A stretch of DNA of 39,431 nt. Origin: Oscillospiraceae bacterium (lineage in GTDB: Bacteria > Bacillota > Clostridia > Oscillospirales > Ruminococcaceae). The notes beneath the pieces were generated by a model. It searched no databases. It was not told the origin of the DNA and saw nothing but the letters and a program-made list of their open reading frames with translations. The stretch covers positions 1-39,431 of the forward strand of contig JAGAZJ010000011.1 of NCBI GenBank assembly GCA_018110925.1, given 5' to 3'. Made by a program: the position numbers and the translations under genes. Position 1 is the stretch's first letter; every line of letters begins with the position of its first letter. Below are positions 6,809-39,209 of the stretch, piece after piece.

Positions 6809-6853
6809 TTTTCTGACCTTTCAGCACATACTTATTTCATCATACATTTTACT

Positions 6854-7020: not shown

Positions 7021-7022
7021 TA

Positions 7023-7051: not shown

Positions 7052-7083
7052 ATGCCTATGTTTTATGAGAAGGAGAGGATATA

Positions 7084-9012
7084 ATGCCTAAATTCTATAT
7101 AACCACGCCCATATATTATCCGTCGGGCAATCCGCATATAGGCCATTGCTACACCACTGTTGCCTGTGATGTCATCGCCCGCTTCAAGAGGATGCAGGGC
7201 TATGATGTGATGTTCCTGACAGGTACGGACGAGCACGGAGCAAAGATACAGCAGAAGGCAGAGGCGGAGGGAATGACCCCCCAGCAGTATGTTGACGGCA
7301 TAGTTGAGAACTTCAAGCGCCTCTGGAGCTTTATGGGGATAAGCTACGACCGCTATGTGAGAACGACTGACCCCTATCATATCGAGACGGTGCAGAATAT
7401 ATTTAAAAAGCTCTATGACAAGGGATATATCTACAAGGGCACATACAAGGGCAAGTACTGCGTTCCCTGCGAGAGCTTCTGGACAGAGACACAGCTTGTT
7501 GACGGCAAATGCCCCGACTGCGGCAGAGATGTGGTGGAGGCTGAGGAGGATGCATACTTCCTCAAGCTGTCCGTAATGACCGACAAGATAATCGACCTGT
7601 TGAAGAATACGGACTATCTGCGCCCCGAGACAAGAGTCAACGAGATGATAAACAACTTCGTCAAGGACGGTCTGGAGGATCTCTGCATTTCAAGGACGAC
7701 CGTAAAATGGGGTATACCCGTTCCCTTTGACGAGAAGCACACCATATATGTATGGCTGGATGCGCTCATAAACTACATCAGCGCACTGGGCTATGAGAAC
7801 AGCACCTACAACGACTTTGACAGATACTGGCCTGCTGAGATGCACATGACCGCAAAGGAGATAGTACGTTTCCACTCTATCGTATGGCCCGCCCTGCTCA
7901 TGATGCTGGATATCCCGCTCCCCAAGAGGCTCTACGGCCACGGCTGGATCACATTCAACGGCGCCAAGATGTCAAAATCCCTCGGCAATGTGGTGGACCC
8001 CTTTGTTCTGGGTGAGAGATACGGTGTTGATGCGGTGAGATATCAGATACTCCGTGATATGCCCTACGGCTCCGACTCCAACTTCTCCAATGAGATAATG
8101 ATAGGCCGCATAAACACAGACCTTGCCAACGACCTTGGAAACCTTGTTTCACGCACGGTCGCTATGGCTGACAAGTATTTCGGCGGCACACTTCCCACCG
8201 AGAGACAGGCAGACCCTGCCGATGATGAGCTTATCGCTATGGCATCGGCTCTGCGTGACACAGTGGCAGGCTATGTGGACGAGGCACAGCATTCTCTTGC
8301 ACTGGCGGAGATATTCAAGGTCATCTCCCGTGCGAACAAGTATATCGACGAGACCGCTCCCTGGGTGCTCGCAAAGGACGAGGCAAACAGGGCAAGGCTC
8401 GCATCGGTCATATACAATCTGCTGGAGACCATAAGGATAACCTCCACCCTGCTCAGTCCTTTCATGCCCTCCACCATGCCCAAGGTGTGGGAGCAGACGG
8501 GTGCAGAGGGTTTCACCGACTATGAGAGTGCCGCAGTATTCGGAGTGCTTCCTGCCGATGTGACCGTACACAAGGGAGATATCATATTCCCCAGGATAGA
8601 TGTTGACAAGGAGATAGAGGCTCTCAACGAGATACTCCGTGCGGATGCCGCCGAAGATACCGACGGAGCAGTCCTTGAACCCCTTGCCGATACCATAAAG
8701 ATAGACGATTTCTTCAAGAGCGACCTGCGTGTGGCTGAAGTCAAGCAGTGCGAGAAGATACCCAAGGCAAAGAAGCTCCTCAGACTGATACTCAACGACG
8801 GCTTCGGCGAGAGACAGGTCGTATCGGGCATAGCCAAGTGGTACGCTCCCGAAGACCTTGTTGGCAAGAAGGTCATTGTTGTCGCAAACCTTGCTCCCGC
8901 AAAGCTCTGCGGAGTTGAGTCACAGGGAATGATAGTGGCGGCCTCCGTGGGTGAGGATGCCAGAGTCATATTCGTTGACAACGACATACCCAACGGTTCA
9001 AAGCTGTCATAA
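7084..9012 (+). CDS. metG: Methionyl-tRNA synthetase
   Basis: Class I aminoacyl-tRNA synthetase that charges tRNA-Met. At 642 residues it has the HIGH signature (18-21, in NPHIGH), a zinc knuckle formed by C126-x2-C129 and C143-x2-C146, the KMSKS loop (295-299, FNGAKMSKSLGN), an anticodon-binding helical domain (about 350-500) and a C-terminal OB-fold tRNA-binding domain (about 540-642, containing FFKSDLRVAEVKQCEKIPKA). This is the long Bacillus-like type that dimerises through the C-terminal domain. Its TAA stop overlaps the ATG of the next gene (TAATG), indicating translational coupling. Confidence 0.97.
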   Translation: MPKFYITTPIYYPSGNPHIGHCYTTVACDVIARFKRMQGYDVMFLTGTDEHGAKIQQKAEAEGMTPQQYVDGIVENFKRLWSFMGISYDRYVRTTDPYHIETVQNIFKKLYDKGYIYKGTYKGKYCVPCESFWTETQLVDGKCPDCGRDVVEAEEDAYFLKLSVMTDKIIDLLKNTDYLRPETRVNEMINNFVKDGLEDLCISRTTVKWGIPVPFDEKHTIYVWLDALINYISALGYENSTYNDFDRYWPAEMHMTAKEIVRFHSIVWPALLMMLDIPLPKRLYGHGWITFNGAKMSKSLGNVVDPFVLGERYGVDAVRYQILRDMPYGSDSNFSNEIMIGRINTDLANDLGNLVSRTVAMADKYFGGTLPTERQADPADDELIAMASALRDTVAGYVDEAQHSLALAEIFKVISRANKYIDETAPWVLAKDEANRARLASVIYNLLETIRITSTLLSPFMPSTMPKVWEQTGAEGFTDYESAAVFGVLPADVTVHKGDIIFPRIDVDKEIEALNEILRADAAEDTDGAVLEPLADTIKIDDFFKSDLRVAEVKQCEKIPKAKKLLRLILNDGFGERQVVSGIAKWYAPEDLVGKKVIVVANLAPAKLCGVESQGMIVAASVGEDARVIFVDNDIPNGSKLS

Positions 9013-10154
9013 TGGATAGGGACAGAAAGGCCGGACCGCTGAAAAAAGCCATGGCACTGGGAAATGTGATGATATTTTTCGCATTCCTGACTGCCATGGC
9101 AGTCTTTACCGTGATAAAGCCCAAGGAAAAGTTCTCGGAGAACCAGAACAGATACTTGGCATCGTTCCCGTCGTTCTCTGCAAAGAAGCTGTACAGCGGG
9201 AGCTTCACCGACGGCGTGGAAAAATATCTGTGTGACCACTTCATCAATTCCGATATCTTTGTGGCACAGCGGACAAAGACAGAGCTCCTCTTCCGCCGTG
9301 ACGTAAACGGCATATACATACTGGGGGACAGGCTCGTTGAGCGCATAGACACGCCCGATGCGGAAGTGACACAAAAAAACATCGACTCACTGAACACATT
9401 TGCGCAGGACTGCTCAAAGCCCGTATTCCTGATGCTGGCACCCACGCAGGCTGAGATGTACAGCGACGAGCTGCCGAAAAATGCCCCCAACCCCGACCAG
9501 AAGGCATATATAGCGGATGTGGCATCACAGCTCGACGGTGTTACGCTCATAGACCTTTATTCCGTGCTGAACGTGAGCAGGAACGACTATATCTATTACC
9601 GCACAGACCATCACTGGACATCCAAGGGAGCATATCTCGCCTTTGCGGCAGGGGCGAGGGCTATGGGCTATGAGGCAGAGCCCGTGTCTGATTTTGATGT
9701 ATTCTTCGCCGCAGATGATTTCAGGGGTTCGTTCTATTCAAAGACGCTCTATGACGGCATAACGCCCGACAAGGTGAGCATATATTCCCTGCCGGATGCG
9801 CCCGTTCCGGTGATGTATGTGTATTCCGCCATAGGAGCGGAGCCCGAAGTGCATGAGGGGCTTTACTACTATGAGTTTCTTGACCGCAAGGACAAGTACA
9901 GCACGTTCCTCGGCACGAACCAGCCCATGATAACGATAAAGACGGGCAATGAGGGCAGCAGGCTGCTTATGTTCAAGGACAGCTATGCCCACAGCCTTGT
10001 GCCCTTTCTTGCAGGGCATTACAGCGAGATAACCATGCTTGACACAAGGTATATACAGGTGCCTTATACAGAGCTTTGCGACCCCGAGGAATACGATCAG
10101 GTGCTGTTTATGTACAATGTATCCACATTTATGGACGGCATACAGCTGAGATAG
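9012..10154 (+). CDS. DHHW-family exported protein (AlgX/SGNH-hydrolase-like)
   Basis: A 380-residue protein with one N-terminal membrane anchor (about 16-36) and an extracytoplasmic domain. The family signature is TDHHWTSKGAY (198-208, D199-H200-H201-W202), and a second conserved block FKDSYAHSL (321-329) holds the candidate serine S324. These are the marks of DHHW proteins, which are related to AlgX/AlgJ acyltransferases and SGNH hydrolases and usually act on envelope polysaccharides; in many Firmicutes they sit next to MBOAT O-acyltransferases. No MBOAT gene is present here. The start overlaps the metG stop by one base, so its expression is tied to metG. Substrate unknown. Confidence 0.8.
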   Translation: MDRDRKAGPLKKAMALGNVMIFFAFLTAMAVFTVIKPKEKFSENQNRYLASFPSFSAKKLYSGSFTDGVEKYLCDHFINSDIFVAQRTKTELLFRRDVNGIYILGDRLVERIDTPDAEVTQKNIDSLNTFAQDCSKPVFLMLAPTQAEMYSDELPKNAPNPDQKAYIADVASQLDGVTLIDLYSVLNVSRNDYIYYRTDHHWTSKGAYLAFAAGARAMGYEAEPVSDFDVFFAADDFRGSFYSKTLYDGITPDKVSIYSLPDAPVPVMYVYSAIGAEPEVHEGLYYYEFLDRKDKYSTFLGTNQPMITIKTGNEGSRLLMFKDSYAHSLVPFLAGHYSEITMLDTRYIQVPYTELCDPEEYDQVLFMYNVSTFMDGIQLR

Positions 10155-10320
10155 ACACGCCGGATCTGTTATGCCCTTTCAGGCTCTGCAAAAAACTAAA
10201 TCCGTATACAGATATCAAACACCGTATAAAAAATATGCCGGGATGTGAAAAATATCAGTCCTGTGAGTTGTATATATTACAAAGGGGCTCACCCGAACGG
10301 TGTGAAAAGGGGGACGTATC

Positions 10321-11928
10321 ATGAAAAGTCTTAAAAGGCTATGTATTCTTTCGGTCGCGGGCGCTATGGCGCTGTCTGCCTGCTCGTCGGGCGCATCCAC
10401 GTCGGAAAATGGCGCCACCGCTCCTGCTGGTGCGGCAGAGACATTTGCCGCTTCACCGGGGGAAGTGGAATCACCTGCGGATCACAGAGCCGGTGATGCA
10501 CCGGCTGACGGAGCTCCGCCGGTGCCGACGCCCGATGCCGAATATGCGGCAGAGGAGGCAGACGGCGAAATATATGCCGAAACTGCTGCAATGTACGAAG
10601 AAACAGCGGCAGTGACTACGGTGGCTTTTGCGGCAGATATGGATACTGCCGACGAGGGCGAATATACGGAGGAGTATTTCACATCCGTGACCGTGAACAA
10701 CGGTGTCCGTGCAGGACAGCTCACCGCAGGCGAATGGAACGACAATGAGAATTGGGGATTTTTTGTAAATCTCTGCAACCGAGGTCTGATAGAATACCCT
10801 GCATACGGCATAGACCCCCGTTTTCGCACGGCGGTGACGGTAAAGGCTCCCGACGGCTCGCCCGTGGTGAATGCGTCCGTCACTCTCTTTGACGGGGACA
10901 AGGCTTCATGGACGGCGGTGACCGACAAGGAGGGCAAGGTGTACCTTTTCGGCAGGGGAGATACTCTTAGGGTATCGGGAGGCGGAACATCGAGCCTGTA
11001 CCGTATAGACGGCGGCGTGGAGGATGTTCCACGTGAAACATCCGAAGCCGAAACAGATATTGCCGCCGGGACGGATATCACCGAGACCGAACGCACCACA
11101 TTCCACGATGCGCTTGAGATAGTCGTCAGAAAAGGCACTGCCGAGCTTCTGGGAAAGGATGCGGCAGACCGCATATTCGGCTCGGAAGCCACCGAGACAC
11201 CGCCGGAGGACAGCCCCGATATGGAGGCGGTCGCAGAGCAGTATATCCAGGACAGACAGCCGTTCATATCCAATGATGTGGATGTAGTCTTTGACGGCGG
11301 ATACAAGGCATATCCCGATATGCAGATAATGTTCATCGTTGACACAACAGGGTCTATGGGCGATGAGCTCATGTTCCTGCAAAGCGACTTCACGGCTATC
11401 GCAGAGGCGGTGGGCACCGACCATGCGGAATTCTCCGTGAATTTCTACAAGGACAAGGAAGATACCTATGTCACACGCACACATCCCTTCTCCAAGGACA
11501 TAAAGGACATAAGCCGCATCCTCAATTCCGAGTATGCGGAAGGCGGCGGTGACGAGCCCGAGGCTGTGTCGGAGATACTTGATGAATGTATGCATTCCCA
11601 GTACTGGAAAGGCGACACCGTAAAGCTGGCATTTCTGATATTTGATGCACCGCCACACAGTGACAGCCACTCCCTCAAGGTGCTTGAAAAGGCAATGAAA
11701 TCGGCATCGGCACAGGGCATAAGGGTGATACCCGTGGTGTCCTCGAACGGTGCGAGAGAGACAGAGCTTTTCGGCAGAGGTCTTGCCATATTCACGGGCG
11801 GAACATATGTGTTCCTCACCGATGATTCGGGGATAGGGGAGAGCCACCTTGAACCGATAATAGGCCATTATGAGGTGGAGAGCCTGTATGACCTCATCAT
11901 CAGGCTGATAAACGAATACAGACAGTGA
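10321..11928 (+). CDS. VWA-domain lipoprotein
   Basis: A 535-residue lipoprotein. The signal peptide ends in the lipobox LSAC (18-21). A long Ala/Glu/Pro-rich, low-complexity linker follows (22-120), then a region with a beta-sandwich, carboxypeptidase-regulatory-like look (about 168-228) and a von Willebrand factor A domain beginning at MFIVDTTGSM (337-346). D341, S343 context and the later T/D positions form a MIDAS metal site. GGGDEPEAVSEILDE is also typical of VWA folds. It probably mediates protein or ligand binding outside the membrane; partner unknown. Ribosome-binding site AAGGGGG precedes the ATG. The coding region contains a perfect parS site (codons 235-240). The 166-base gap before it shows no clear promoter. 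Confidence 0.82.
   Translation: MKSLKRLCILSVAGAMALSACSSGASTSENGATAPAGAAETFAASPGEVESPADHRAGDAPADGAPPVPTPDAEYAAEEADGEIYAETAAMYEETAAVTTVAFAADMDTADEGEYTEEYFTSVTVNNGVRAGQLTAGEWNDNENWGFFVNLCNRGLIEYPAYGIDPRFRTAVTVKAPDGSPVVNASVTLFDGDKASWTAVTDKEGKVYLFGRGDTLRVSGGGTSSLYRIDGGVEDVPRETSEAETDIAAGTDITETERTTFHDALEIVVRKGTAELLGKDAADRIFGSEATETPPEDSPDMEAVAEQYIQDRQPFISNDVDVVFDGGYKAYPDMQIMFIVDTTGSMGDELMFLQSDFTAIAEAVGTDHAEFSVNFYKDKEDTYVTRTHPFSKDIKDISRILNSEYAEGGGDEPEAVSEILDECMHSQYWKGDTVKLAFLIFDAPPHSDSHSLKVLEKAMKSASAQGIRVIPVVSSNGARETELFGRGLAIFTGGTYVFLTDDSGIGESHLEPIIGHYEVESLYDLIIRLINEYRQ
11025..11040. promoter_or_regulatory. parS: parS centromere-like site (ParB/Spo0J binding)
   Basis: TGTTCCACGTGAAACA is an exact match to the 16-bp chromosomal parS consensus of Bacillus subtilis. 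It lies inside the VWA lipoprotein gene, where it encodes D-V-P-R-E-T. ParB/Spo0J binds such sites to load SMC and segregate origins. Chromosomal parS sites cluster around oriC, so this places the window in the origin-proximal part of the chromosome (inference). Confidence 0.85.
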
Positions 11929-25138: not shown

Positions 25139-25172
25139 GAAAGCACAGTCTCGCACTGTGCTTTCTTTTTTT
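25139..25172 (+). terminator. Intrinsic terminator of tuf
   Basis: GAAAGCACAGT (25139-25149), loop CTCGC, ACTGTGCTTTC (25155-25165), then seven T. The convergent phage-type gene ends at 25171, inside this T run. Confidence 0.95.
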
Positions 25173-25842
25173 ATCCGATAAGCTCCTGTCGTTTTGCTTC
25201 ACATTCCGCCGCAAAGTCATGCAGGAGCGTCAGCGACTCCGAAGATGACATACGGCTGACAAGACTTTCCAGTGACCCCGGCAGCGACGGGATAGACGCT
25301 ATACCGCCCGTAAGCTCCTGAACGGAACGAATACTCCCGTCAGGGGCATATTCAGTTCTGTCGTATAGCCATCCGTATGTCCACTGCATACTGAGAGACC
25401 CTATGTTGTAGCTCTGGTCGGGCTGAAATGCCATAGTGAGAGTGGGTGTGCCTTTCATTATGTTCTCTTCAAAGAGGTATGCGCCGCAGTTCTCGTCATA
25501 CTTGTACGTCCTGCGGTGTCCCCACCCCTCAAAGCCGAAGGGACCGTTGTAGTTTATCATCACGGTGTTGTTTGTATTTCCTCTGCACAGGCAGACCCAT
25601 ATCACAGGGCGTGAGAGCCATTCTCTCTGCACATATGCGATCTGCTCCCCGTGAATGGTCACGCCGCTTGTCTGTATGACGGGTGTGTTCAGAAATACCC
25701 CTGCGGCATCGTATCTTATAACGATGCAGTAATGCTCAGTCAGGCGAAATGATGCCAGTGCGGGCAAAGCTGTCACCCCTGCGAATATATCATCTCCGCC
25801 CGATGAAGCAAGTCCCGTTATATATCCTGCTATAAAGCTCAA
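25171..25842 (-). CDS. Unrecognised terminal virion-cassette protein
   Basis: A 223-residue protein, last gene of the phage-type cassette. I recognise no family. No signal peptide or membrane segment is convincing. It is rich in Tyr, Trp and Gly in the middle (NYNGPFGFEGWGHRRTYKYDE) and ends in a helical, Ser/Leu/Glu-rich tail (MSSSESLTLLHDFAAECEAKRQEL). Position after the hub-like gene, with a 4-base ATGA overlap, suggests a tail tip, fibre or receptor-binding part, but that is inference from gene order only. Confidence 0.6.
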   Translation of the reverse strand: MSFIAGYITGLASSGGDDIFAGVTALPALASFRLTEHYCIVIRYDAAGVFLNTPVIQTSGVTIHGEQIAYVQREWLSRPVIWVCLCRGNTNNTVMINYNGPFGFEGWGHRRTYKYDENCGAYLFEENIMKGTPTLTMAFQPDQSYNIGSLSMQWTYGWLYDRTEYAPDGSIRSVQELTGGIASIPSLPGSLESLVSRMSSSESLTLLHDFAAECEAKRQELIG

Positions 25843-27020
25843 TGCTCCTCCTTTCTGAGCCTGATGTTGGTCTTTCTGCCGCCATGCTCATCGTATGAAA
25901 GTATGTACGAACTGCCTCCGTAGACGATCCGTTCCGAGGTGGCGCTTATATGTTCTATCAGTGTCGGCATAACACCGTCGATGACCGCCCCGTCGAATGT
26001 GGTCACGCCGTCCGCCACGGCAGAGAAGCCGTGCTTTGCTCTCAGGCGTATATCCTCATCCTCAGTTTCTTCCGTTATGGCTATACCGTCGGTGTCTATC
26101 ACCGCACTGCCGTAGAGCCTGCTCTCTCTGAGCATATCGAGCACCTCGTCACGGGGCGTTGAGGATATGTCTTTTGTGTATGCCCGTGCATACATCACCG
26201 CACCGAAATATATCTCCGTGACACAGGCGGTATACACGTTCTCTCCGAGAAGGAAGGATGTTATACCTTCCGTTGCCTCGTCAAGCTCTATATGACCGCA
26301 GTAAAATGACTGTATCCGCTTCCCTGCAAGCGATGATGCCAGCGCTCTTGTCCTCTCGGTCGTAAAACCCCTGCCGGCAACGCTTACCACGGAGCGCACA
26401 CCGCCCGTGCCCGACGTATATATCTTTCCTGACAGCCTGTTCTGCGCCCTGACCCCCGTGAACGGGCCGTAGACCGAATGCAGGTATACATGGGAATACT
26501 GTGCGGAGCTCACCGTGCAGGCACTGTCACAGAAATGTATGAACCTCAGCGCTCCGCTGTTTGTGCAGTACCACACGCCGCAGGCATCTTCGCTTAAGTC
26601 TTTTAGTATCTGTCTGACGGTCTTGCCTTTCACATCAGTACCGCACAGACAGACATCGGGTACGTTTTCCGCTCCCGTAAATCCGCATTCTCTTGCTATC
26701 GCCGAAACAAATGAGGGCGTGTGTATCTCTTCGGGTATCTCTGTCTGAAAGCATCTGTCCGTATTTCTCATGAGGTCGGTGGCATTTATGGTCACGCTGT
26801 CCCCCTGTCTTGTTATGCTGTCTATGTAGTGTACCGAGAATACGGTATTGCCAAAGCTTATCGAAACAGGGTCGTCGGGCTCGGCGTATATCTCGCCACG
26901 GAACGTGAGTATAAGCTCCGACCGTACAAATCCCCTTACGGCGATGCTGTCGGCACGTCGGGTGAGCTTTGCGCCTGTGAGATATGTGTTGTCCGCTCTG
27001 CTCCCGTTTATTGTTATCAC
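25839..27020 (-). CDS. Tail-hub/baseplate-like protein
   Basis: A 393-residue protein. The opening MITINGSRADNTYLTGAKL and the DDPVSISFGNTVFSVHYIDSI stretch (about 51-72) are like the beta-rich domains of phage hub or tail-associated proteins (gp27/gp44-like): a short beta-barrel followed by a RNTDRCFQTEI switch and a second domain with TVRQILKDLSEDACGVWY (about 135-152), which resembles the repeated domain of such hubs. That is a structural guess from pattern. It begins 7 bases after the preceding gene and overlaps the last gene by 4 bases. Cysteines are more frequent than usual for virion proteins. Confidence 0.5.
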   Translation of the reverse strand: MITINGSRADNTYLTGAKLTRRADSIAVRGFVRSELILTFRGEIYAEPDDPVSISFGNTVFSVHYIDSITRQGDSVTINATDLMRNTDRCFQTEIPEEIHTPSFVSAIARECGFTGAENVPDVCLCGTDVKGKTVRQILKDLSEDACGVWYCTNSGALRFIHFCDSACTVSSAQYSHVYLHSVYGPFTGVRAQNRLSGKIYTSGTGGVRSVVSVAGRGFTTERTRALASSLAGKRIQSFYCGHIELDEATEGITSFLLGENVYTACVTEIYFGAVMYARAYTKDISSTPRDEVLDMLRESRLYGSAVIDTDGIAITEETEDEDIRLRAKHGFSAVADGVTTFDGAVIDGVMPTLIEHISATSERIVYGGSSYILSYDEHGGRKTNIRLRKEEH

Positions 27021-27027
27021 AGGGCCG

Positions 27028-27390
27028 CTAAAGGCAGGAGCGGATATTTCCGCAAAGGGTCAGGTCGATCGTCCAGTACAGCCCGTCAAGGTCACGTTCC
27101 GCCGAGAAATCGGCTCTCTCACAGACCATCTGAGCCTGTGTCTGCCGGGGAGAGATATAGCTCACGCTCACCGTGCTTCCCGAAAGTGCTGTGCGGAGCA
27201 CCCGTGCGGTCGTATCCTCCACGTCGGTGAGCCTTGCCTTTATGGTGGTCATTTCTCCTGTCTTGTGGCGTACCCTCTCACCGTATATATTTACAAAGCT
27301 GTCCGCAAAGACTGGCTCTGCCGAGCAGGTGAAGCTCTCCTCCGTGAGATATCCGCTCACATCTGTTCCTGCTATCGTAAGATACATCAC
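27028..27390 (-). CDS. Small tail-type protein
   Basis: A 120-residue protein beginning MMYLTIAGTDVSGYLTEESF. Openings of the form 'IxGxDVSxYL' are frequent in small tail or distal-tail proteins of Firmicutes phages. The middle (GEMTTIKARLTDVEDTTARVLRTAL) looks like the beta strand plus helix of tail-protein folds. It overlaps its upstream neighbour by 4 bases (ATGA). Role in a short tail or adaptor is inferred from order and pattern only. Confidence 0.5.
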   Translation of the reverse strand: MMYLTIAGTDVSGYLTEESFTCSAEPVFADSFVNIYGERVRHKTGEMTTIKARLTDVEDTTARVLRTALSGSTVSVSYISPRQTQAQMVCERADFSAERDLDGLYWTIDLTLCGNIRSCL

Positions 27391-27731
27391 ATCACTATCC
27401 TTATCTCCGCTTCACAGCCTGCCAGCCGTGAATATATCCTGTCTATCAGTACGGTTCCCGTACCGCTCAGTTCAAATCTTCCCAGAGTGAATCTGAAGTC
27501 AGCTTTCTGACCGCCCAGCCCTGCTTCAAGAAGCATATCCACCGCCGCATCCGTGCCGATGCGCACGATCAGCACAAGCGTGGTGAGCCCCGACATTATC
27601 CTGCATCTGTCCCCGTCTATATACCGCCTTTCGGCTGTCCTCGGCGCAGGCAGAGCCGTGACCGAGAGTATACCGTCGGCGGCAGGTATCTTTTCGCTGC
27701 CGTCTCTGCCAATGTACAGTGAATACATCAA
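27387..27731 (-). CDS. Small cassette protein, unrecognised (adaptor or tail component)
   Basis: A 114-residue beta-rich protein starting MMYSLYIGRDGSEKIPAADG. No motif is recognised. Overlaps both neighbours by 4 bases, so it is an integral part of the cassette. The place of this gene, between connector-like and hub-like genes, is where a tail-tube or tail-terminator gene usually sits. Confidence 0.5.
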   Translation of the reverse strand: MMYSLYIGRDGSEKIPAADGILSVTALPAPRTAERRYIDGDRCRIMSGLTTLVLIVRIGTDAAVDMLLEAGLGGQKADFRFTLGRFELSGTGTVLIDRIYSRLAGCEAEIRIVM

Positions 27732-28060
27732 AGACCCCCCTTGTATATTACTTCAAATCTCTGACAAAATCTGAAATATCCGCTCTCATGCCCGTCTGCG
27801 GCGGCTGTGGAGAGGGGAGAGATGCGGAGTATCCCCTCCTCTGCCCTGTGGGTCATGACACGGGCGGTAAATGAAGCCAGCACCGACAGGCATATCTCCG
27901 GTGAACTGCCGTCCGCATATGCACACAGCTCCGCCCTGCATACCGCATTCCCTCCGAGGTCGGGAAACATCTCGCCCCCCGTGATCCTCAGTGCCGCAGG
28001 GGTGTCGGATATACTGCGCACGGCGGATATGACCGCCGCCGCACCGTAAAGGGCGCTCAT
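27728..28060 (-). CDS. Tail-completion/minor-capsid-like protein
   Basis: A 110-residue protein starting MSALYGAAAVISAVRSI, with a CQRFEVIYKGGL C-terminus. Its length, helix-then-beta plan and place as third small gene after the capsid gene fit a tail-terminator or completion protein (SPP1 gp17-like position). Identification is by synteny, not by clear motif. 4-base overlaps on both sides. Confidence 0.5.
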   Translation of the reverse strand: MSALYGAAAVISAVRSISDTPAALRITGGEMFPDLGGNAVCRAELCAYADGSSPEICLSVLASFTARVMTHRAEEGILRISPLSTAAADGHESGYFRFCQRFEVIYKGGL

Positions 28061-28404
28061 AGGGCGCCCCCCAGTGAAAGCTCTGTGTGGTGCAGTCCCA
28101 TGCCGTCATAGATATATGCCGCACCCGTCACGGGATATTCATGTCCGCCAAAGACTATCACGCTGTCAAGCCCCTCCGTGATGAACTCCGCCTCCTCGGG
28201 CAGACTGTTCACCGTGTCGAAATAGAGCTTCCCTCCGCGCATTGTGCGGCAGTGCTTTTCGTCGCATTTCACCCGTGCTTCGGGCACTATGCGCACCCGT
28301 GACAATGCTGTGTCCGATACCCTTGTCCTTGTGACAAGGTCGGGACTTGTGCGGTATTTTCTCAGCACACAGCTGTGTATCAGTGCTCTTACGGGTATTC
28401 TCAT
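28057..28404 (-). CDS. Head-completion (stopper)-like protein
   Basis: A 115-residue basic protein with a beta-rich centre (VFGGHEYPVTGAAYIYDG). It has the size and place of the second connector protein (SPP1 gp16-like stopper, or Minor_capsid family). It also carries FDTVNSLPEEAEFITEGLDSVIVFGG, which resembles putative minor-capsid proteins of Firmicutes siphophages. Overlaps the neighbours by 4 bases each. Moderate confidence. Confidence 0.5.
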   Translation of the reverse strand: MRIPVRALIHSCVLRKYRTSPDLVTRTRVSDTALSRVRIVPEARVKCDEKHCRTMRGGKLYFDTVNSLPEEAEFITEGLDSVIVFGGHEYPVTGAAYIYDGMGLHHTELSLGGAL

Positions 28405-28694
28405 GACACCCCTCCTCTGTATAAAAGTCCGTACTTTTCAAGACAGATGAGCGCCTCGGGGGATATATCCCCCCTGCGTCGGCTCTTTGCGGCAAAGTCC
28501 CCCAGCCTTATCTCATCAGAGCCGTCATCTGTCATATACTCCGCCTGCACGCATACGCTGTCGGCAATCATGCTGTCGTCCGCAGGGACGGTCAGACAGG
28601 CGGTTATGAGCCTGTACGCCCGCCTGAGATACGGCACTATCTCAGTGCCGTATCTGCCGCCGAACTCGTTGTGATAATAGTTGTAGTCTATCAT
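28401..28694 (-). CDS. Head-tail connector (gp15-like adaptor)
   Basis: A 97-residue, mostly helical protein starting MIDYNYYHNEFGG, with DISPEALICLEKYGLLYRGG at the end. It follows the capsid gene by 12 bases and has the size and helical nature of the gp6/gp15-type head-tail adaptor. Motif evidence is weak; order is the main support. Confidence 0.55.
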   Translation of the reverse strand: MIDYNYYHNEFGGRYGTEIVPYLRRAYRLITACLTVPADDSMIADSVCVQAEYMTDDGSDEIRLGDFAAKSRRRGDISPEALICLEKYGLLYRGGVS

Positions 28695-28706
28695 ACGCCC
28701 CCCGCA

Positions 28707-29576
28707 TCAGGTTGCCTTGTGATGAACGTATATCCCCGCCGTCATGTTTCTGTATACACTGCACAGACCATAGCTGCGGTATGCATATCTCCACGCATCC
28801 GAGTCGGGGTTGTTCTCGGGCGGTATTATCTTTGAGAGCAGATGCTTTGTGAACATCAGCACGGCGGGCTTGTGTACTATGAGAAAGTTTATGTCCTTTC
28901 CGTTTGCCGCCTTTTCATAGCCGCCGTCCTCTTCTCCCGCAGATGTGCCGTCAAGGAGCACCACCGATGTGTAGAACCTGCCTGCGGGCACAGTGACCGT
29001 CTGACTGAATGAAGACAGCACAGACCTTGATTTTGTGGCATCCATATCCTCTATCATACCCATTGCTTCGGGCGAGATAAAGAGTATCCTGTCCTCATCG
29101 GGCACTTCCGCCGTGTCAAGGGCGCTTACCGCTGTGCGCAGGGCGGCTGTCACGTCCTCACCGTCTGAGAATGTGCCCTGCATCTTTGTCACACCCGTGG
29201 TCGATGCCAGCTGTGCAAAGCGGAATGCATCCAGCTCGGGGACAGCCTTTGTGCGCATGAATTCGCCCGCAAGTCTGCCGAAGGCGATGTTGCGTGTCTC
29301 CTCATCATCCATGCTGTCCACCTCGAACATCCTGCCTCTCTCATAGTTGAACTTCATGGTGCTCCATGTGAGGGATACGCTTCCCCTGACATAGCCGTCA
29401 TTTCTCGAATAGTCTGCAAGGCCGTCCATCACCAGCGAGGGCACCACTATCTCGTTTGCGTTCGCCCCCTCTCTCGAGAGGGATGCGTCAGACTCCAGCA
29501 CGGATGTCTTTGCGGTCTGTACATACAGATCGTTCATCAGCTTTGTGTATCTTGAAGCAAGCATTATCCTGTTCAT
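28707..29576 (-). CDS. Major capsid protein (HK97-fold type)
   Basis: A 289-residue protein in the standard place after the scaffold gene. The plan is typical of scaffold-dependent HK97-fold capsid proteins: N-terminal helix (MNRIMLASRYTKLMNDLYV), an extended loop region (about 45-90, SLVMDGLADYSRND and WSTMKFNYERGRMFEVD), a spine helix segment (93-140), and a P-domain with RILFISPEAMGMIED. The last section, FLIVHKPAVLMFTKHL plus RYAYRSYGLCSVYRN, is the common 'capsid end' containing the Tyr/Gly strand seen in many Firmicutes phages. No protease gene is nearby, in line with a separate scaffold. Confidence 0.75.
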   Translation of the reverse strand: MNRIMLASRYTKLMNDLYVQTAKTSVLESDASLSREGANANEIVVPSLVMDGLADYSRNDGYVRGSVSLTWSTMKFNYERGRMFEVDSMDDEETRNIAFGRLAGEFMRTKAVPELDAFRFAQLASTTGVTKMQGTFSDGEDVTAALRTAVSALDTAEVPDEDRILFISPEAMGMIEDMDATKSRSVLSSFSQTVTVPAGRFYTSVVLLDGTSAGEEDGGYEKAANGKDINFLIVHKPAVLMFTKHLLSKIIPPENNPDSDAWRYAYRSYGLCSVYRNMTAGIYVHHKAT

Positions 29577-29579
29577 ATA

Positions 29580-29873
29580 TCATTCTCCCTTCATGAGCCC
29601 GAATGCTTTTCTCAGGGCTGTGTCGTCGTTTGCCGTTCTTGAAAGCTGTGTGCCCGAGCGGCGGTTCATAAGGCGGCTGTATCTTTCGAGTATCTCCTCC
29701 GCCGCACTCTCAAAGTCAGAGCCGTTCTTCTCAGCCCTGTTCCTTGCCAGCAGAGCCATATCCTCTCTGTACTCCTCGGGCACACCTCTCTTTGCGCAGA
29801 AAAGTTCCTCACGCAGTCTGCGGTTCTCATCCGCCAGCTGTTCGTTCATCTCGTCATTCTCGTTCATCATCAT
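29580..29873 (-). CDS. Scaffold-like protein
   Basis: A 97-residue, strongly helical, charged protein (MNEQLADENRRLREELFCAKRGVPEEYREDM...). A coiled-coil N-terminal part, then an EEILERYSRLMNRR helix and a short basic tail, as in small scaffolding proteins (DUF4355-like). It lies between portal and capsid genes, where scaffolds sit, and overlaps the portal gene by 20 bases. Three consecutive ATGs start it; the third (29867) is best spaced from AGGAG. Confidence 0.65.
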   Translation of the reverse strand: MMMNENDEMNEQLADENRRLREELFCAKRGVPEEYREDMALLARNRAEKNGSDFESAAEEILERYSRLMNRRSGTQLSRTANDDTALRKAFGLMKGE

Positions 29874-31137
29874 ATCTCCTTTCCCTGTCTATGAGCATCT
29901 CCTCCTGCCTTGCCTCATCAGCCGAGCAGTCGTTTATCTCCATCACAGCCCGTGTGCGGCTGCGAAGCCCTGCTTCATAGAGCCTTATGTTCTCGTTTGC
30001 GGTCTTTTCCCTGTCAAGGGTCTGGCTGTCCGCAAATACCGCCCTCACGGGGGATATGCTCTTTATCGCTCCCGTTTCAATGCCGCACCGTGATATCAGC
30101 ATAGCCGTGCGCTCTATCAGCTCTGCGGCAAGAAAGCGGTTCTGCTGCATGGTTATCTCGGTGCGCTGTTCCATGCTCTTTACCTCTGCGGCGGTCTTTA
30201 AGCCCCCTGCGGTGAACGAGAGCGTCCCTGCCGACAGCCCGGTCTGAAAGCACAGCACATCCAGCAGAGCGTTCAGCGCATCCCTGTGTTCCGTCACACG
30301 AAGCTCCGTGGTGTTATCGGTTATCTTCAACTCCCTGTCCTCGTCGCATTTGAGTGCCTGATAAACCTCATCGTCGGTGTCAAAGTATCTGCTCACCTTG
30401 CCCGTTTCGGGGTCTACCACCGTGCGTATGCAGGATGAGGGCACTATTATGCGCTTCCTGCCGAGTATGAATTCCCTTGTGAAGCTGTCAAACACCGTGT
30501 CTATCGCTCTGAGCGTGTCGATACAGCCATCTATGACGCTCATTCCGTAGAGGGACTGACCGTCGGGGTTCGTCACGGAGGGCTTGAAGTATGCAAAGCC
30601 CGTCCCTGCACCGTAGCCTGTGCTCTGTTCAAGGCCTGTCACCGCCTCGCAGTCAGCCTCTCTGCCCTTTGCGTCAAATACATATCTGTCCACCTTGCCG
30701 TCCAGGTGTCGTTCGAGCAGAGTATATCTTTCGCCGTGAGAGTATACCGCTCCGCAGAAAATCCCTCCGTCCGCCGCACCGTTGGATGCAGACAGGGGTA
30801 TGAACATATCCGCATCCACGTAGTCCGTGCGGATCTCCTCCCCGTCTGAATAGACCTTCAGCACGCCGCCGCCGAGAGCATAGGCACGGCTGAAAAATGA
30901 CGGCATATTCTCCCAGAAGCTGTTTTTCTGCAATACCTCCAGCACATATTCTCTCTGAGCGTCATCGGCGCAGTATATGTCCGCCTGGGTGCCGAATGTG
31001 AGCGCCGCAAGGCTGTCGCACAATACCTTTGCGCATCCGAGCATCGCCATGCGGCGTTCTCCTCTGCCGTAAAGCCCCGACCGCCTGACGTACTGCCAGG
31101 GGGGCGAGCCCGAGTATATATCCTGCCACAGCGCCAT
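29854..31137 (-). CDS. Portal protein (SPP1 gp6-like)
   Basis: A 427-residue portal through which DNA enters the head. The C-terminal half is typical of Firmicutes SPP1-type portals: DVLCFQTGLSAGTLSF, GGLKTAAEVKSMEQRTE and QQNRFLAAELIERTAMLI, which make the crown and stem helices. From the ATG at 31137 the gene has no good ribosome-binding site. Coding-like sequence continues 24 codons upstream (DTDTALAKVFGELPRG...) without any start. An AGGAG-ATGATG at 31216-31206 sits one frame away. A single missing base near 31207 would give a 451-residue protein with a perfect start, so the gene may be frameshifted or misread there. Confidence 0.8.
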   Translation of the reverse strand: MALWQDIYSGSPPWQYVRRSGLYGRGERRMAMLGCAKVLCDSLAALTFGTQADIYCADDAQREYVLEVLQKNSFWENMPSFFSRAYALGGGVLKVYSDGEEIRTDYVDADMFIPLSASNGAADGGIFCGAVYSHGERYTLLERHLDGKVDRYVFDAKGREADCEAVTGLEQSTGYGAGTGFAYFKPSVTNPDGQSLYGMSVIDGCIDTLRAIDTVFDSFTREFILGRKRIIVPSSCIRTVVDPETGKVSRYFDTDDEVYQALKCDEDRELKITDNTTELRVTEHRDALNALLDVLCFQTGLSAGTLSFTAGGLKTAAEVKSMEQRTEITMQQNRFLAAELIERTAMLISRCGIETGAIKSISPVRAVFADSQTLDREKTANENIRLYEAGLRSRTRAVMEINDCSADEARQEEMLIDRERRYDDERE

Positions 31138-31219
31138 TCTCTCAAAATGCTCTGCCGTGCCCCGGGGCAGCTCCCCGAATACCTTTGCAAGTGCCGTGTC
31201 CGTATCATCATCTCCTTTC

Positions 31220-32440
31220 TCACATAAGGTCGAGTATGTCCCTCATCCTGTTCTCCGTGGAGTATTCCTGCGCATCAAGGCTGTCGATGTTCGTGCTCCC
31301 GTCGTCGAGCCTGCGGTCATTGTCCCATACCGCCGTGCAGAATGCTTCAAGTGTGTGCCTGCATCCTCTTGCGATGAAATACCTCCCCGACCCTGCGATA
31401 GCGGTGTAGAAGCGTATCCTCTCGTTTATACTGCCCTTTCTCGCATTGTGTATCTCCACGGGCAGGCGCTCTCTAAGGGCGGCGTTTTTCAGCCCTCTTA
31501 TAAGCACCTGCTCCGCCGAATCGCAGTACACATCACGAAGCCTGTACTTTGTCAGGGCACGGCGCACGAAGTTCACGAATTCCCGTTCCAGCGCCGCAGG
31601 AGTGAGGGGCTTTTTGGTGTAGTATTCATCAAGGGTTATTATGCGCTTTGCCCCTGCGGTGTAGCCTGTCAGGGCAAATGCCGTCGCAGAGCCGCTGCCG
31701 CCGAAGTCCACGCCCATATCCGCACAGACTATGCCCTCCGTGTCATCCGTTATGAATTTGTCCGGTGCTGATGCTATCATTGGGTATATACTGCCCTCTG
31801 CGCATTTCCACAGACCGAGGATGAACCTGTCATAGTATACCGTTCCTCTGTATTCGTTCTTGAGCGCATCCACGAAGTCCCTGCTGAGCGCGGTGTTATC
31901 GTCTATGGTGAAGTGTACCTGTGCGATGTCCTCCGAGCCGCTGTCGAGAAATCTCTTGAACCAGTGAAAGGGCGAGTCGGGATTGCAGCTGCCGTCAAAT
32001 ACGGAATAGGGTCTGTCAAGCCTTGACTTCACCATTTCAAAGACCGTCTCGTTCCATGTGGTGATCTCATCGCCGTAGCAATAGGCAAGGCTCATGCCTC
32101 TCAGCTTGTCGGCACAGGCGGAGCAGTATGCTCCCGTGGCGTAGCATTCCCTGCCGAAAAGTCTCACCTTGCCCCCTGCGGATATCCTGCCCACATACTT
32201 TTCTGTGTACATCTTTCTCATGGGTGCGAGGATATTTCTCTCCAGACTGCCGCAGGTGTTGCCGATGAGGGCAATGCCGCCCTCACCTGCGTGCATTATG
32301 CGATAGGGTATGCGGAACAGGTCAAGATATGTCTTGCCCGACCTCACCGCCCCGACAGATATGTTCCACCGCTTAGGGGATGATATGGTGCTGTGCCATA
32401 ATGCTTGCTGCTTTGCTGTAAACAACTTATCCGTCGTCAT
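31220..32440 (-). CDS. Terminase large subunit (ATPase/nuclease)
   Basis: The packaging motor, 406 residues from the ATG at 32440 (GGGGGTGAGG upstream, 14-base overlap with the small-subunit gene). Walker A GAVRSGKT (30-37), Walker B YCYGDE (120-125) with catalytic E125, coupling motif DGSCNP (149-154), and the RNase H-like nuclease with D245 (GVDFGGSG) and D307 (VYCDSAEQ). This is a PBSX/SPP1-type terminase large subunit. All catalytic positions seen are intact, so DNA packaging activity is possible. Confidence 0.9.
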   Translation of the reverse strand: MTTDKLFTAKQQALWHSTISSPKRWNISVGAVRSGKTYLDLFRIPYRIMHAGEGGIALIGNTCGSLERNILAPMRKMYTEKYVGRISAGGKVRLFGRECYATGAYCSACADKLRGMSLAYCYGDEITTWNETVFEMVKSRLDRPYSVFDGSCNPDSPFHWFKRFLDSGSEDIAQVHFTIDDNTALSRDFVDALKNEYRGTVYYDRFILGLWKCAEGSIYPMIASAPDKFITDDTEGIVCADMGVDFGGSGSATAFALTGYTAGAKRIITLDEYYTKKPLTPAALEREFVNFVRRALTKYRLRDVYCDSAEQVLIRGLKNAALRERLPVEIHNARKGSINERIRFYTAIAGSGRYFIARGCRHTLEAFCTAVWDNDRRLDDGSTNIDSLDAQEYSTENRMRDILDLM

Positions 32441-32750
32441 CCTCACCCCCTGCAAGGGTGTCAAAGAGTGCTTTGAGCGTATCATCGCCGCCTGTTTCAC
32501 CGAACACCCCCGTGAGCCTTGCGATCATCTCTATCGCTTTCAGCTTGTCATAGAGCTTTATCTCTATGCCCTTTGTGCCTGCCTTTATGCCGGCAAGCGC
32601 CGCCCTGTCATTCCGTGTGAGACTGTCCGTGTCCGTCACACGCAGGGTCTGCGTTTCTCCGTCGCTCTCAACCCTGACAAATCGTGTCAGGTCGGCGAAA
32701 GCCGCCGCAGAGAGCTGAGAGAGAAGTCTTTCCTTGGATAATTTCTTCAT
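32427..32750 (-). CDS. Terminase small subunit-like protein
   Basis: A 107-residue protein in the canonical small-terminase place. KKLSKERLLSQLSAAAFADLTRFVRV and TRNDRAALAGIKAGTKGIEIKLYDKLKAIEMIARLTGVFGE resemble the DNA-binding and oligomerisation parts of Terminase_2/XtmA proteins; the 'KLYDKLKAIEMIARLTG' segment is especially typical. The ATG at 32750 has AGGAGGA upstream. The longer in-frame extension upstream is not used. First gene of the cassette. Confidence 0.8.
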   Translation of the reverse strand: MKKLSKERLLSQLSAAAFADLTRFVRVESDGETQTLRVTDTDSLTRNDRAALAGIKAGTKGIEIKLYDKLKAIEMIARLTGVFGETGGDDTLKALFDTLAGGEDDDG

Positions 32751-32773
32751 GCGTCCTCCTTTGTGTTTCTGAA

Positions 32774-32964
32774 TTGCACTGCGCAAATATGTGGCTATAA
32801 AATAACACATGACCTGTGTGAGGCTGCTGCTTGATTTGCTCTGCGCAATCCGTTGAACATATAATAGCACAACGCAATCTGTTTGTCAAGCGCGAATTTG
32901 CGTTGTGCGATTATTTTGTTGCTTTGCACAATGAGAACAGCCTCTTGATATGCACTATGCACAA
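32774..32964. repeat. Array of TTGC-N5-GCAA operator-like palindromes
   Basis: Six related 13-bp sites: TTGCACTGCGCAA (32774-32786), TTGCTCTGCGCAA (32836-32848), TTGCGTTGTGCTA (minus strand, 32877-32865), TTGCGTTGTGCGA (32898-32910), TTGCTTTGCACAA (32919-32931), and a weaker GCACTATGCACAA (32952-32964). Centres are spaced about 62, 29, 33, 21 and 33 bases. They cover the cassette promoter and the divergent LURP-one upstream region. Likely binding sites of a dimeric repressor encoded elsewhere. Confidence 0.7.
32861..32889 (-). promoter_or_regulatory. Consensus promoter of the virion cassette
   Basis: Minus strand TTGACA (32889-32884), 17-base spacer, TATTAT (32866-32861). The leader to the terminase small-subunit gene is about 105 bases. 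Palindromic sites overlap the -10/spacer, flank the -35 and lie just past the start site, so the promoter is probably repressed. Confidence 0.85.
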
Positions 32965-37382: not shown

Positions 37383-37526
37383 ATACTAATTTCTGACCGA
37401 TGCAATTATCTTCTGACGAAGATATATCTTCTGGCGAAGATAGACAAGAAACAAGCCGCAAATGCTTGGATATAAGGGGTTTGGGGCTTGGAGATGGTCT
37501 GTACATCGGGGAAGAACTGGTATAAT
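37383..37526 (-). repeat. Dispersed 144-bp repeat, copy 2 (inverted)
   Basis: Reverse complement of 17742-17885 with about 90% identity and no gaps. On the plus strand it contains two tandem 18-base hairpin units, TATCTTCTGACGAAGATA (37407-37424) and TATCTTCTGGCGAAGATA (37425-37442), and ends in an extended -10 (TGGTATAAT, 37518-37526) that faces the gene at 37561. It lies in the 5' region of that gene, opposite in orientation to copy 1 relative to its downstream gene. Confidence 0.85.
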
Positions 37527-37560
37527 GTCAGCTATCAGCATCGGAAAAGGAGGAACATCT

Positions 37561-38238
37561 ATGAAAATGAAAATAGCTGCGGCCGCATCCCTACTGGCAG
37601 TAATGTGCCTCTCCGTTCCTGTTGCCGCTGATTATTATGATCCGTACGGCAACATCGTATACGACTCCTACAATCCGAACTACAATTCGGGCGTCTATTA
37701 TGACAACGGTACACCTGTCCTCTATGACAATACCGGTACCGGGGTGTATTATGACAACGGATATGTTCCTGCCGGAAGGGTCACTACCACGAGCAGAGTG
37801 CCCACCCTCAACTATTCGGCTGATGGTCACTCCGAGCCCGCCAGAACGACGACAACGCCCAAGACCACCAGAAAGGTCGTTGTGAAGAAGAAAGTATCCG
37901 CATCGGGCTGGAAGAATATAAACGGCAGCACATATTACTACAAGAACGGTGCGCCGCTCAAGGGCAGATACAAGATAAGCGGCAAGACCTATTATTTCAG
38001 CATGACCAACGGGGCTATGGTGAGAGGATTTGTCAAGATAAGCGGCAAGTACTACTATTTCGGCTCTGACGGTGTTATGTGCACGGGTCTTACCAAGATA
38101 AACGGCAATTATTACTATTTTGCCTCCAACGGCGCCATGCGCACAGGCAGGATCAGAATAAACGGCGTTATACATACCTTTGGTTCTGACGGCAAGCTCA
38201 TCTCGCCGACATATACCACGGTAGTCTATTACAGATAA
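37561..38238 (+). CDS. Exported cell-wall-binding-repeat protein
   Basis: A 225-residue secreted protein. Signal peptide 1-23 (cleavage likely after VAA), a Tyr/Asn/Asp-rich low-complexity region (24-65), a Thr/Arg-rich linker (72-112), and about four choline/glucan-binding-type repeats (116-213: SGWKNINGSTYYYKNG, KISGKTYYFSMTNGAM, KISGKYYYFGSDGVM, KINGNYYYFASNGAM, the last weaker). No catalytic domain. Such proteins attach to the wall or surface glycans. Start ATG with AAGGAGGAAC upstream. The next gene follows after 14 bases. Confidence 0.85.
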   Translation: MKMKIAAAASLLAVMCLSVPVAADYYDPYGNIVYDSYNPNYNSGVYYDNGTPVLYDNTGTGVYYDNGYVPAGRVTTTSRVPTLNYSADGHSEPARTTTTPKTTRKVVVKKKVSASGWKNINGSTYYYKNGAPLKGRYKISGKTYYFSMTNGAMVRGFVKISGKYYYFGSDGVMCTGLTKINGNYYYFASNGAMRTGRIRINGVIHTFGSDGKLISPTYTTVVYYR

Positions 38239-38252
38239 AAGGAGATAAAGAA

Positions 38253-39209
38253 ATGAACAGATATGCGTCAGCCGCACTTGCGCTGATGATGTCGCTCACC
38301 GCTGTTTCTGCGGCCGCTCCCGCTGCGGGTGCGGTCACAGAGTCTTATGTGAGCGCCGTCAGGACCACGGTCAGGACAAAGACAGACAAGACCGATAAGA
38401 CAGACACCAAGAAGGAAACAAAGAAAGAGAAAAAGCTCTACGGCTGGCAGACTATCGACAAGAAAAAGTATTACTACGGTAAAAAGGGCGTTCCCCTCAA
38501 GGGCTGGAAGCGCCTGAACGGCAGTCAGTATTTCTTTGACACATCCACGGGTGAAATGACCGTCGGATTTCTTGACATCAACAAGGATACCTACTATTTC
38601 GACAAGGACGGCAAGATGAAGACGGGCTTCCAGACCATAGACAAGAAGAAATACTGGTTCTCCAACGAGGGCAAGATGTTAAAGGACACCGAGAAGAAGA
38701 TAGACGGGAAATACTACACCTTTGACAAGGACGGTGTGATAGTGAACTCCGGCAAGTCTGAGGGCGGCGCAAGGGTCATTGTCATCGACAGCCTCAGACA
38801 CAGAAAGGAACTGAGCGCAGACCTTTCGAGCGTTGAGTGGCAGGAAGCATACGGCAGGGCTGTTGAAATAACAGAGCCGCTTCTCAGCAAGAGCAAGGGC
38901 GAGCAGCTCCAGGCGGTCGTTGACGCTGTACACGCCAGAAAGAACGACCTGCTCATAACTGACGGTATGCTCCATTCCAACGATGTATACGGATTTTTCT
39001 TTGACAATATAACCACTCAGCTCGGCACCGCAAGAGCAACGGGTCTTTGCCTTGACACTCTCAACATAGACTATGAGTATGTTACCGGCGGATGGACAGG
39101 CACCGACACATGGCTCAGGGTCAAGGTCGGCAATGACTACTATGTGGTAGACAGCTTCAACGGCTACTATGTCAAGGAGACAAGCGCCTATCATCATCCC
39201 TATCTGTAA
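38253..39209 (+). CDS. Exported protein with cell-wall-binding repeats and a transglutaminase-like domain
   Basis: A 318-residue secreted protein: signal peptide 1-28, Lys/Thr-rich linker (37-60), four to five binding repeats (61-166, e.g. YGWQTIDKKKYYYGKKG, GFLDINKDTYYFDKDG), and a C-terminal domain (170-318) that resembles transglutaminase/protease-like folds. C266 (ATGLCLDTL) fits the catalytic cysteine and D300 (YYVVDSF) the aspartate, but the histidine position (DTWLRV, residues 285-290) lacks His. Either the histidine is elsewhere or the domain is inactive and only binds. Co-transcribed with the preceding gene. Confidence 0.75.
   Translation: MNRYASAALALMMSLTAVSAAAPAAGAVTESYVSAVRTTVRTKTDKTDKTDTKKETKKEKKLYGWQTIDKKKYYYGKKGVPLKGWKRLNGSQYFFDTSTGEMTVGFLDINKDTYYFDKDGKMKTGFQTIDKKKYWFSNEGKMLKDTEKKIDGKYYTFDKDGVIVNSGKSEGGARVIVIDSLRHRKELSADLSSVEWQEAYGRAVEITEPLLSKSKGEQLQAVVDAVHARKNDLLITDGMLHSNDVYGFFFDNITTQLGTARATGLCLDTLNIDYEYVTGGWTGTDTWLRVKVGNDYYVVDSFNGYYVKETSAYHHPYL

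Follow-up and report, generated by a model that had tools for sequence, protein, structure and literature searches.

The question raised by contig JAGAZJ010000011.1 of an Oscillospiraceae bacterium (39,431 nucleotides, the whole of which is referred to here as the window) is what a compact cassette of phage head, packaging and tail genes is doing among ordinary cellular genes. Our analysis indicates that the cassette is not a relic. Judging from the sequences, we consider it likely that it is a genus-wide, domesticated element of the gene transfer agent (GTA) type, which would pack host DNA into small, short-tailed particles. This reading is based on a capsid gene that all 20 searched members of the genus possess, on genetic distances that follow those of the host, on purifying selection in relatives and on the truncation of its small terminase subunit, TerS. 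We infer that the cargo is host DNA taken at random, and that the particles are released and deliver it to recipients.

The cassette consists of twelve co-directional open reading frames (ORFs) for head, packaging and tail proteins in 7.6 kb (25171-32753, minus strand; Table 1), in the order TerS, TerL, portal, scaffold-like protein, major capsid protein (MCP), g6, g7, g8, g9, g10, g11 and g12, with tuf on one side and a LURP-one/nadB pair on the other. The original prediction, made from this DNA alone, had described such a twelve-gene cassette, and the ORFs together with their Pfam and PHROG family matches bear it out; its mention of mostly 4-base overlaps did not hold, as the exact 4-base overlap is found at five of the 11 junctions. 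It had also stated, correctly, that no frame exceeds 430 residues. The largest frame of the cassette has 427 amino acids, and therefore no tape-measure gene fits. The G+C content of the cassette is 54.7% versus 51.3% in the remainder of the window, which belongs to a 69%-complete metagenome-assembled genome (1.67-Mb assembly). Pfam scans of 33 chosen window ORFs (ten to twelve within the cassette plus the larger of those elsewhere) returned no integrase, recombinase, replication or lysis domain, in agreement with the predicted absence of such genes next to the cassette, and the scanned ORFs outside it matched mostly ordinary cellular families. The integrase, replication genes and tape measure of a complete prophage were not found. 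What was found is a phage-derived cluster of terminase, portal and capsid genes of the kind that defines a GTA, free of integrase and replication genes among these 33 ORFs, and host-type genes likewise flank the loci L064 and L062 of relatives.

The MCP gene was detected in each of the 20 genus genomes searched (53-67% identity outside the window). It is single in each genome, save for a second, more distant copy (45-49%) in three of them, of which the copy in G012 (L073) belongs to a prophage with a tape measure. The cassette gene order showed no deviation among the genus loci, and across the 20 cassettes, some of them truncated at contig borders, no ORF is longer than 501 amino acids. Internal stops are absent from 178 of 186 gene hits, and by their coordinates at least six of the remaining eight overrun the gene start. 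Distances between cassette genes correlate with those between host genes: Mantel r against recA was 0.777 for TerL (n=16), 0.750 for portal (n=16) and 0.864 for MCP (n=18), and against fusA 0.860 (n=12), 0.816 (n=12) and 0.717 (n=14), respectively, with p at 0.0005, the floor of 2000 permutations, in all of these comparisons; the two host genes correlate with each other at r 0.588 (n=12). The cassette and host trees have subgroups in common, for example G004/G005/G006. Within the genus, these distances fit vertical inheritance with the host, with the caveats that cassettes of a sister genus nest inside it and that chromosomal position is not conserved (see below).

The original prediction had proposed dN/dS of terL, portal and capsid as a check, and in relatives these ratios are well below 1. 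Over six pairs, dN/dS ranged from 0.050 to 0.373 (TerL, 0.060-0.093; MCP, 0.063-0.097), and in the pair G007-G013 (dS 0.32-0.65) it was 0.050 for TerS, 0.069 for TerL, 0.081 for portal and 0.063 for MCP. These values point to purifying selection on structural and packaging genes at the level of the genus rather than of the window's species.

The TerS of the window covers the Terminase_2 profile only from position 60 of 141, and three further genus members start at 60-62 of 141 (four scanned, including the window). The genus TerS proteins are about 100-120 amino acids long, and by eye the similarity among the 17 genus loci with a TerS frame begins at or near the start, with nothing common upstream; the TerS genes of G012, G016 and G017 lie outside the contigs read and were left out of this comparison. 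Profile coverage and open frames therefore indicate that TerS of this genus is devoid of the N-terminal DNA-binding region, which is a published hallmark of GTAs. In the sister genus, TerS of G313 retains this region, matching the profile from position 18, and that of G267 matches from 53, the latter with an additional N-terminus resembling a helix-turn-helix, and those of G136 and G211 are likewise without the N-terminal region. TerL, the large subunit, probably starts at the ATG at 32440, overlapping TerS by 14 bases. Its G-A-V-R-S-G-K-T region and GDE-TTW are invariant or nearly so across 11 sequences, and D265 and D327 are invariant in all of them. We take these to be the ATPase and nuclease motifs of TerL, in line with the earlier remark that its catalytic residues are all present.

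The tail genes of the cassette suggest a stub. Neither g8, g9, g10 nor g12 has a credible Pfam or PHROG family match, and searches of PDB sequences with capsid and hub gave nothing useful. The predicted g9 model matched in Foldseek the SPP1 tail tube (1.2e-04), the monocin tube (8.0e-04) and the SaPI1 neck (TMq 0.77), and that of g11 matched Mu gp44 (2.9e-11), MuSo2 (6.8e-11), phiCD508 (1.1e-09) and 80alpha (4.5e-09); RcGTA chains matched both folds weakly (tube, 4.4e-03; hub, 7.6e-03). The SFIAGY start of g12 is present in 14 of 18 genus loci checked, at least two of the misses being at contig ends, and BLAST found a g12 relative in one of 20 loci only. In the G012 prophage L073, a 1060-amino acid tape measure (PhageMin_Tail, 4.4e-49) stands directly before a homologue of g10 (5e-09), and next come a g11 homologue (2e-10) and a tip protein that likewise begins with SFIAGY; with the genus set as query, a g10 homologue was also found in L291 of G019 (2e-15). 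Because L073 holds its g10, g11 and tip homologues behind a tape measure, and L291 its g10 homologue behind an 883-amino acid ORF, the cassette tail resembles a siphovirus tail minus its ruler, and it would form a single ring or a very short tube. RcGTA has a tape-measure gene and full tail genes. Lipoprotein-like genes with leucine-rich-type repeats (by eye) are present behind the cassette tail genes in G012 and G018, and a similar start lies beside a holin contig of G017, the three loci being L063 1922-5236, L069 2-2279 and L192 9226-10338.

Lysis genes accompany the cassette in several relatives. In G013 (L064), the run from TerS to g12 continues into fibre-like genes without family match, which are followed by genes for a holin (PF05105, 6.5e-31) and for an amidase (5.8e-23); beyond these lie host spoVS and ymdB. 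The cassette contig also bears a PF05105 holin in G008, G011 and G014, and in G009 contig C251 opens with the protein that closes the cassette contig C125 and continues with a holin of PF05105 and a lysozyme of the GH25 type (1.8e-31). A full prophage around the same cassette in relatives had been named beforehand as the finding that would speak against domestication. That condition came true in part: lysis genes do lie behind the cassette in several relatives, but neither a tape measure nor an integrase or replication gene was seen to accompany them, a combination that fits a GTA better than a prophage. For the clade of the window no lysis module was identified, PF05105 being the only holin family searched. 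The PF05105 holin on contig C22 of the window's own genome was considered as part of a second GTA operon and rejected, as by eye it sits among seemingly unrelated prophage genes; this holin (L176) might supply lysis in trans.

With regard to regulation, the promoter upstream of TerS in the window is the best of 12 such sites (6.0 expected), and a promoter-like site is present there in 16 of 17 loci examined, the window included. The only two exact genus-pattern palindromes in the 1.67-Mb assembly are both at this promoter. The TTGC...GCAA genus pattern occurs at 34 sites in 15 of 20 genomes versus 6 control sites; a single regulon marked by it was not borne out, as only five of the 34 sites (two each in G000 and G001, one in G014) are in or just before a cassette. 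LexA scores above the curated cut-off in 8 of 20 genomes, and the cassette promoters of these have degenerate GAACATATGTTC-like boxes, located in the -35 to -10 spacer or close by, the best match of which beat mononucleotide shuffles (p <0.05) in five of the eight LexA-positive loci versus none of nine others, among them the window. Exact GAACATATGTTC sites number five in nine genomes; four are at Y-family polymerase promoters (two at one G001 gene, one each in G014 and G019) and one is at the G001 cassette. In G004, which has a divergent LexA, the promoters of the cassette and of the Y-family polymerase have a 16-base stretch in common (15 of 16 bases). These promoter comparisons support SOS-type control, at least as a candidate mechanism, in parts of the genus. 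The lexA and recA promoters were uninformative as SOS references, and the 69%-complete genome of the window has no Y-family polymerase for comparison. In G001, a GAACATAYGTTC box is paired twice with a TTGC...GCAA palindrome, both times at 31-base spacing (L052, 5065-5107 and 7308-7350). A divergent LexA-like protein is encoded at L207, L208, L217, L210 and L218 (G003, G004, G005, G010 and G016), in four of five cases behind the same upstream gene as canonical lexA (by eye). In the relatives L058, L059, L060, L062, L064, L065, L066, L069, L070, L074 and L076, a small ORF that might encode a zinc ribbon, having two CxxC pairs (CPVCG ... C..C), was seen by eye between promoter and TerS; the window has none there.

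From these genes we can propose how the element might work. One promoter upstream of TerS would drive the whole operon, and portal, scaffold and capsid protein would form a small head. Without its N-terminal DNA-binding region, TerS would be unable to select a packaging site, so that TerL would fill heads with whatever DNA is available, mostly host chromosome. Two adaptors, the tail-tube ring protein, the hub and a variable tip would build a short tail without tape measure. In several relatives, the holin with an amidase or GH25 lysozyme encoded behind the fibre-like genes may lyse the producer, and in the window's species lysis would have to come from elsewhere or have been lost. DNA damage would probably trigger production in the clade with canonical LexA.

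Several observations weigh against the GTA-type reading or parts of it. Chromosomal position differs among species, the cassette neighbours being spoVS/ymdB in G013, a cysK-type gene in G011 and dnaK-type genes in G014 (some names by eye). The search for the same tuf-adjacent cassette in relatives, suggested with the original prediction, came back with none in eight, and a conserved tuf location was rejected, since the tuf flanks read in these eight other genomes have other genes and no cassette. The chromosomal position of RcGTA is not known to differ in that manner. In the midpoint-rooted cassette tree, the four cassettes of sister genus g118 fall beside G001 inside the genus, possibly through transfer between genera or mis-rooting. 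The dN/dS pairs are all genus relatives, the window's species having no close partner among the genomes used and so standing outside them. In G002, the portal gene carries a stop close to its end, and a C-terminal piece of portal is duplicated. Phage-borne homologues exist as well: the 80-kb faecal phage record MT835475 has TerL (42%), portal (41%) and capsid (49%) together, and in G011 and G019 prophage-like loci hold an additional TerL-portal pair (48-51%). PF05105 holins occur in 15 of 20 genomes and in none of G002, G004, G005, G006 and G010, and the sole one of the window's genome is in the unrelated prophage-like region L176 (G000:C22). As to the SOS proposal, the box search gives it no support at the window promoter, where the closest match to the SOS-type box has 3 mismatches (shuffle p 0.19) and the operator-like palindromes are of a different kind; the broader pattern GAACRNRYGTTC occurs less often than its reversed control in nine of nine genomes; no exact box was seen at recA or before lexA; and in pairwise promoter comparison across genomes the own cassette came first or tied first in five of 10 cases, clearly only in G004.

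The alternative that survives best, still an improbable one in our estimation, is a PBSX-like killing particle, which would package host DNA and kill related strains via its tail tip with no useful delivery of DNA. Variable tips behind a conserved N-terminus suit such a recognition role, and in G012 and G018 lipoprotein-like repeat genes are found amid the tail genes. However, the genes for TerL, portal and MCP consistently rank with those under the strongest constraint, and a killer needs no packaging motor, even if a DNA-filled killer is still compatible with that constraint; moreover, no long tail or sheath gene was found. PBSX of Bacillus subtilis has a long contractile tail, and the cassette is without such a tail. 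The likeness between them is that of a Gram-positive chromosomal element making DNA-containing particles, and PBSX acts as a killer, as stated in the available text of PMC12946183, where the same doubt is raised for the GTA of Faecalibacterium, FpGTA.

We regard it as very unlikely that the cassette is a capsid-forming satellite, which would make its own heads, rely on a helper phage to supply tails and lysis, and spread its own DNA. Such satellites, for example cfPICI, have their own terminase, portal and capsid, and the small size of the cassette, its own terminase and capsid, the varying chromosomal position and the nesting of sister-genus cassettes in the genus tree are in agreement with that. 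Against it, neither the integrase nor the patchy, mobile distribution of a satellite was found: no integrase or replication gene was detected beside the cassette in the window, all 20 genus genomes have one capsid copy of the cassette type, and distances track the host. The cassette also differs from cfPICI in its truncated TerS without DNA-binding region and in having its own hub and tip. Least probable of all is a defective prophage remnant heading for loss, which could call on the missing lysis genes of the window cassette and on the existence of phages with homologous genes, and which is refuted for the genus by selection, with dN/dS well below 1 in every gene tested, a capsid gene kept in 20 of 20 genomes and 178 of 186 gene hits without internal stop. 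Of the branches that the original prediction had left side by side, the GTA-like one under selection is thus retained, and the satellite and prophage-remnant ones are not.

The GTA-type reading finds its closest counterpart in FpGTA. As described in the available text (PMC12946183, 2026), FpGTA has a TerS-TerL-portal-scaffold-capsid operon and a second operon with fibre and lysis genes, its particles are about 40 nm with no visible tail and about 9 kb of packaged DNA, and it was called the second known GTA-type system in Gram-positives. Both are short operons that encode small proteins besides TerL, portal, scaffold and capsid, and in both TerS has no evident DNA-binding domain. In FpGTA I, ten ORFs occupy 10.5 kb, in contrast to twelve genes, hub and tip included, in the 7.6 kb of the cassette; and the tail-tip and lysis genes of FpGTA I are in a separate operon, whereas lysis genes are directly behind the cassette in several relatives. 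FpGTA is backed by particle, DNA and proteomic data, whereas the cassette is known from its gene sequences, and the two were compared by description. RcGTA and CcGTA have in common with the cassette a GTA-type TerS, TerL, portal and capsid (available text of PMC6854486, PMC7947584, PMC11841831), and RcGTA homologues are vertically inherited (PMC11841831). They differ in regulation, in which GafA and CtrA take part according to published abstracts, in contrast to an SOS-type box in part of the present genus.

The same text reports GTA-like packaging of 4.6-kb fragments in the gut commensal Ruminococcus callidus and names no operon in the part available (PMC12946183); among open-licence PMC papers, we found no other that describes such an operon in Ruminococcus or its relatives. 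It is tempting to join these points into one larger claim, which we advance tentatively and would not bet on as a whole: that the cassette is the founding member of a Ruminococcus-like, core-genome GTA lineage in which a siphovirus tail was stripped to a stub of tube, hub and tip, with very small DNA-filled particles and a DNA-damage trigger in part of the genus, and that it or an orthologue is behind the 4.6-kb packaging of R. callidus. Few GTA gene clusters are known outside the Alphaproteobacteria, and a further, genus-wide one in gut and rumen bacteria would point to host-DNA packaging by domesticated capsids as a regular trait of the group. The cassette would be a candidate source of unexplained virome signal and a natural experiment in the reduction of a long tail to a stub, and truncated terS, terL and MCP offer concrete genes for functional work.

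Table 1. Position and basis of assignment of the cassette genes, promoter elements and adjoining hairpin in the window
Feature	Coordinates	Strand	Basis
Operator-like TTGTGCAAAGCAA	32919..32931	-	two mismatches to 14-base pattern
Promoter TTGACA-17-TATTAT upstream of TerS	32861..32889	-	11/12 consensus matches
Operator-like half site within promoter spacer	32867..32879	-	sequence
Operator-like palindrome TTGCGCAGAGCAA, just after -10	32836..32848	-	exact genus-pattern match
Operator-like palindrome TTGCGCAGTGCAA	32774..32786	-	exact genus-pattern match
TerS, GTA-type, 108 aa	32427..32753	-	Pfam Terminase_2 1.4e-07; start preceded by AAAGGAGG site
TerL, large terminase	31220..32440	-	Terminase_6N 1.5e-10; PHROG 2 terminase large subunit 1.5e-26; PDB large-terminase 2.4e-34
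Portal	29854..31137	-	PHROG 533 1.2e-83; Pfam SPP1_portal 7.2e-16
Scaffold-like protein	29580..29873	-	PHROG 2303 3.2e-04 (weak) and place between portal and capsid
Major capsid protein (MCP)	28707..29576	-	PHROG 422 1.1e-67
g6, head-tail adaptor 1	28401..28694	-	PHROG 541 5.9e-07
g7, head-tail adaptor 2 (Minor_capsid_1)	28057..28404	-	Pfam 2.2e-11; PHROG 793 1.1e-07
g8, tail-completion position	27728..28060	-	function from position alone; relative in 12/20 genus loci including the window
g9, tail-tube fold (predicted)	27387..27731	-	AlphaFold2 pLDDT 86.2
g10, tail protein	27028..27390	-	homologues after tape measure in prophage L073 and after 883-aa ORF in L291
g11, tail hub (predicted)	25839..27020	-	AlphaFold2 pLDDT 84.6; PHROG 6616 tail protein 3.6e-04 (weak)
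g12, candidate tip or receptor-binding protein	25171..25842	-	constant SFIAGY start, remainder variable
Hairpin between operon and tuf, terminator-like for tuf	25139..25165	+	11-pair stem then T run

In the wider family, some MCP match was found in 77 of 297 genomes and some portal match in 62 of 396, and beyond the genus an MCP identity above 60% to the window was seen only in the sister genus g118. Fourteen other-family loci that were mapped (L077-L090, MCP 34-55%) are different elements, probably prophages, because none has a portal match above 24%. Among annotated phages, MT835475 gives the best TerL (42%) and portal (41%) matches, and the closest MCP is that of Eggerthella phage PMBT5 (51%); this phage, MT835475 and L073 have homologous capsid, terminase or portal, L073 differing by its 1060-amino acid tape measure. 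Of 313 TerL relatives found on viral contigs, 80 were kept and 32 mapped. Among them, L373 (8.6 kb) has the cassette order from TerS to g11 and resembles a metagenomic copy of this element; in L376 the order is partial (TerL, portal, scaffold, g6 and g7). TerL-portal pairs at 40-59% are present in further genera (g3, g22, g92, g111, g122 and others), some without a frame of tape-measure length in the stretch read.

Some of these distant loci have features of their own. The g3 loci L352-L354 and L368 have TerL at 56-59% and portal at 45-47%, and L353 is without a frame above 467 amino acids in 14 kb. In genus g94, homologues of portal and capsid are followed by small genes in all six loci read (L342-L347; G112, G197, G256, G306, G347 and G384), and TerL has no match in these stretches. 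Their G+C content is 45-51%, on which an identification of g94 with Faecalibacterium was given up; the two that were printed in full lie between ispH/cmk-like and phoH/ybeY-like genes (by eye), and these loci are possibly another domesticated lineage. In L351 (G117, genus g99), a TerL-portal-capsid-tail run at 2631-11920 has 538 amino acids as its largest gene product and ends in a holin-like gene (by eye).

Within the window itself, terminator-like sites such as the hairpin beside tuf are overall at background (6 seen versus 5.1 expected). At 37462-39209, two neighbouring proteins with cell-wall repeats of the choline-binding type are encoded.

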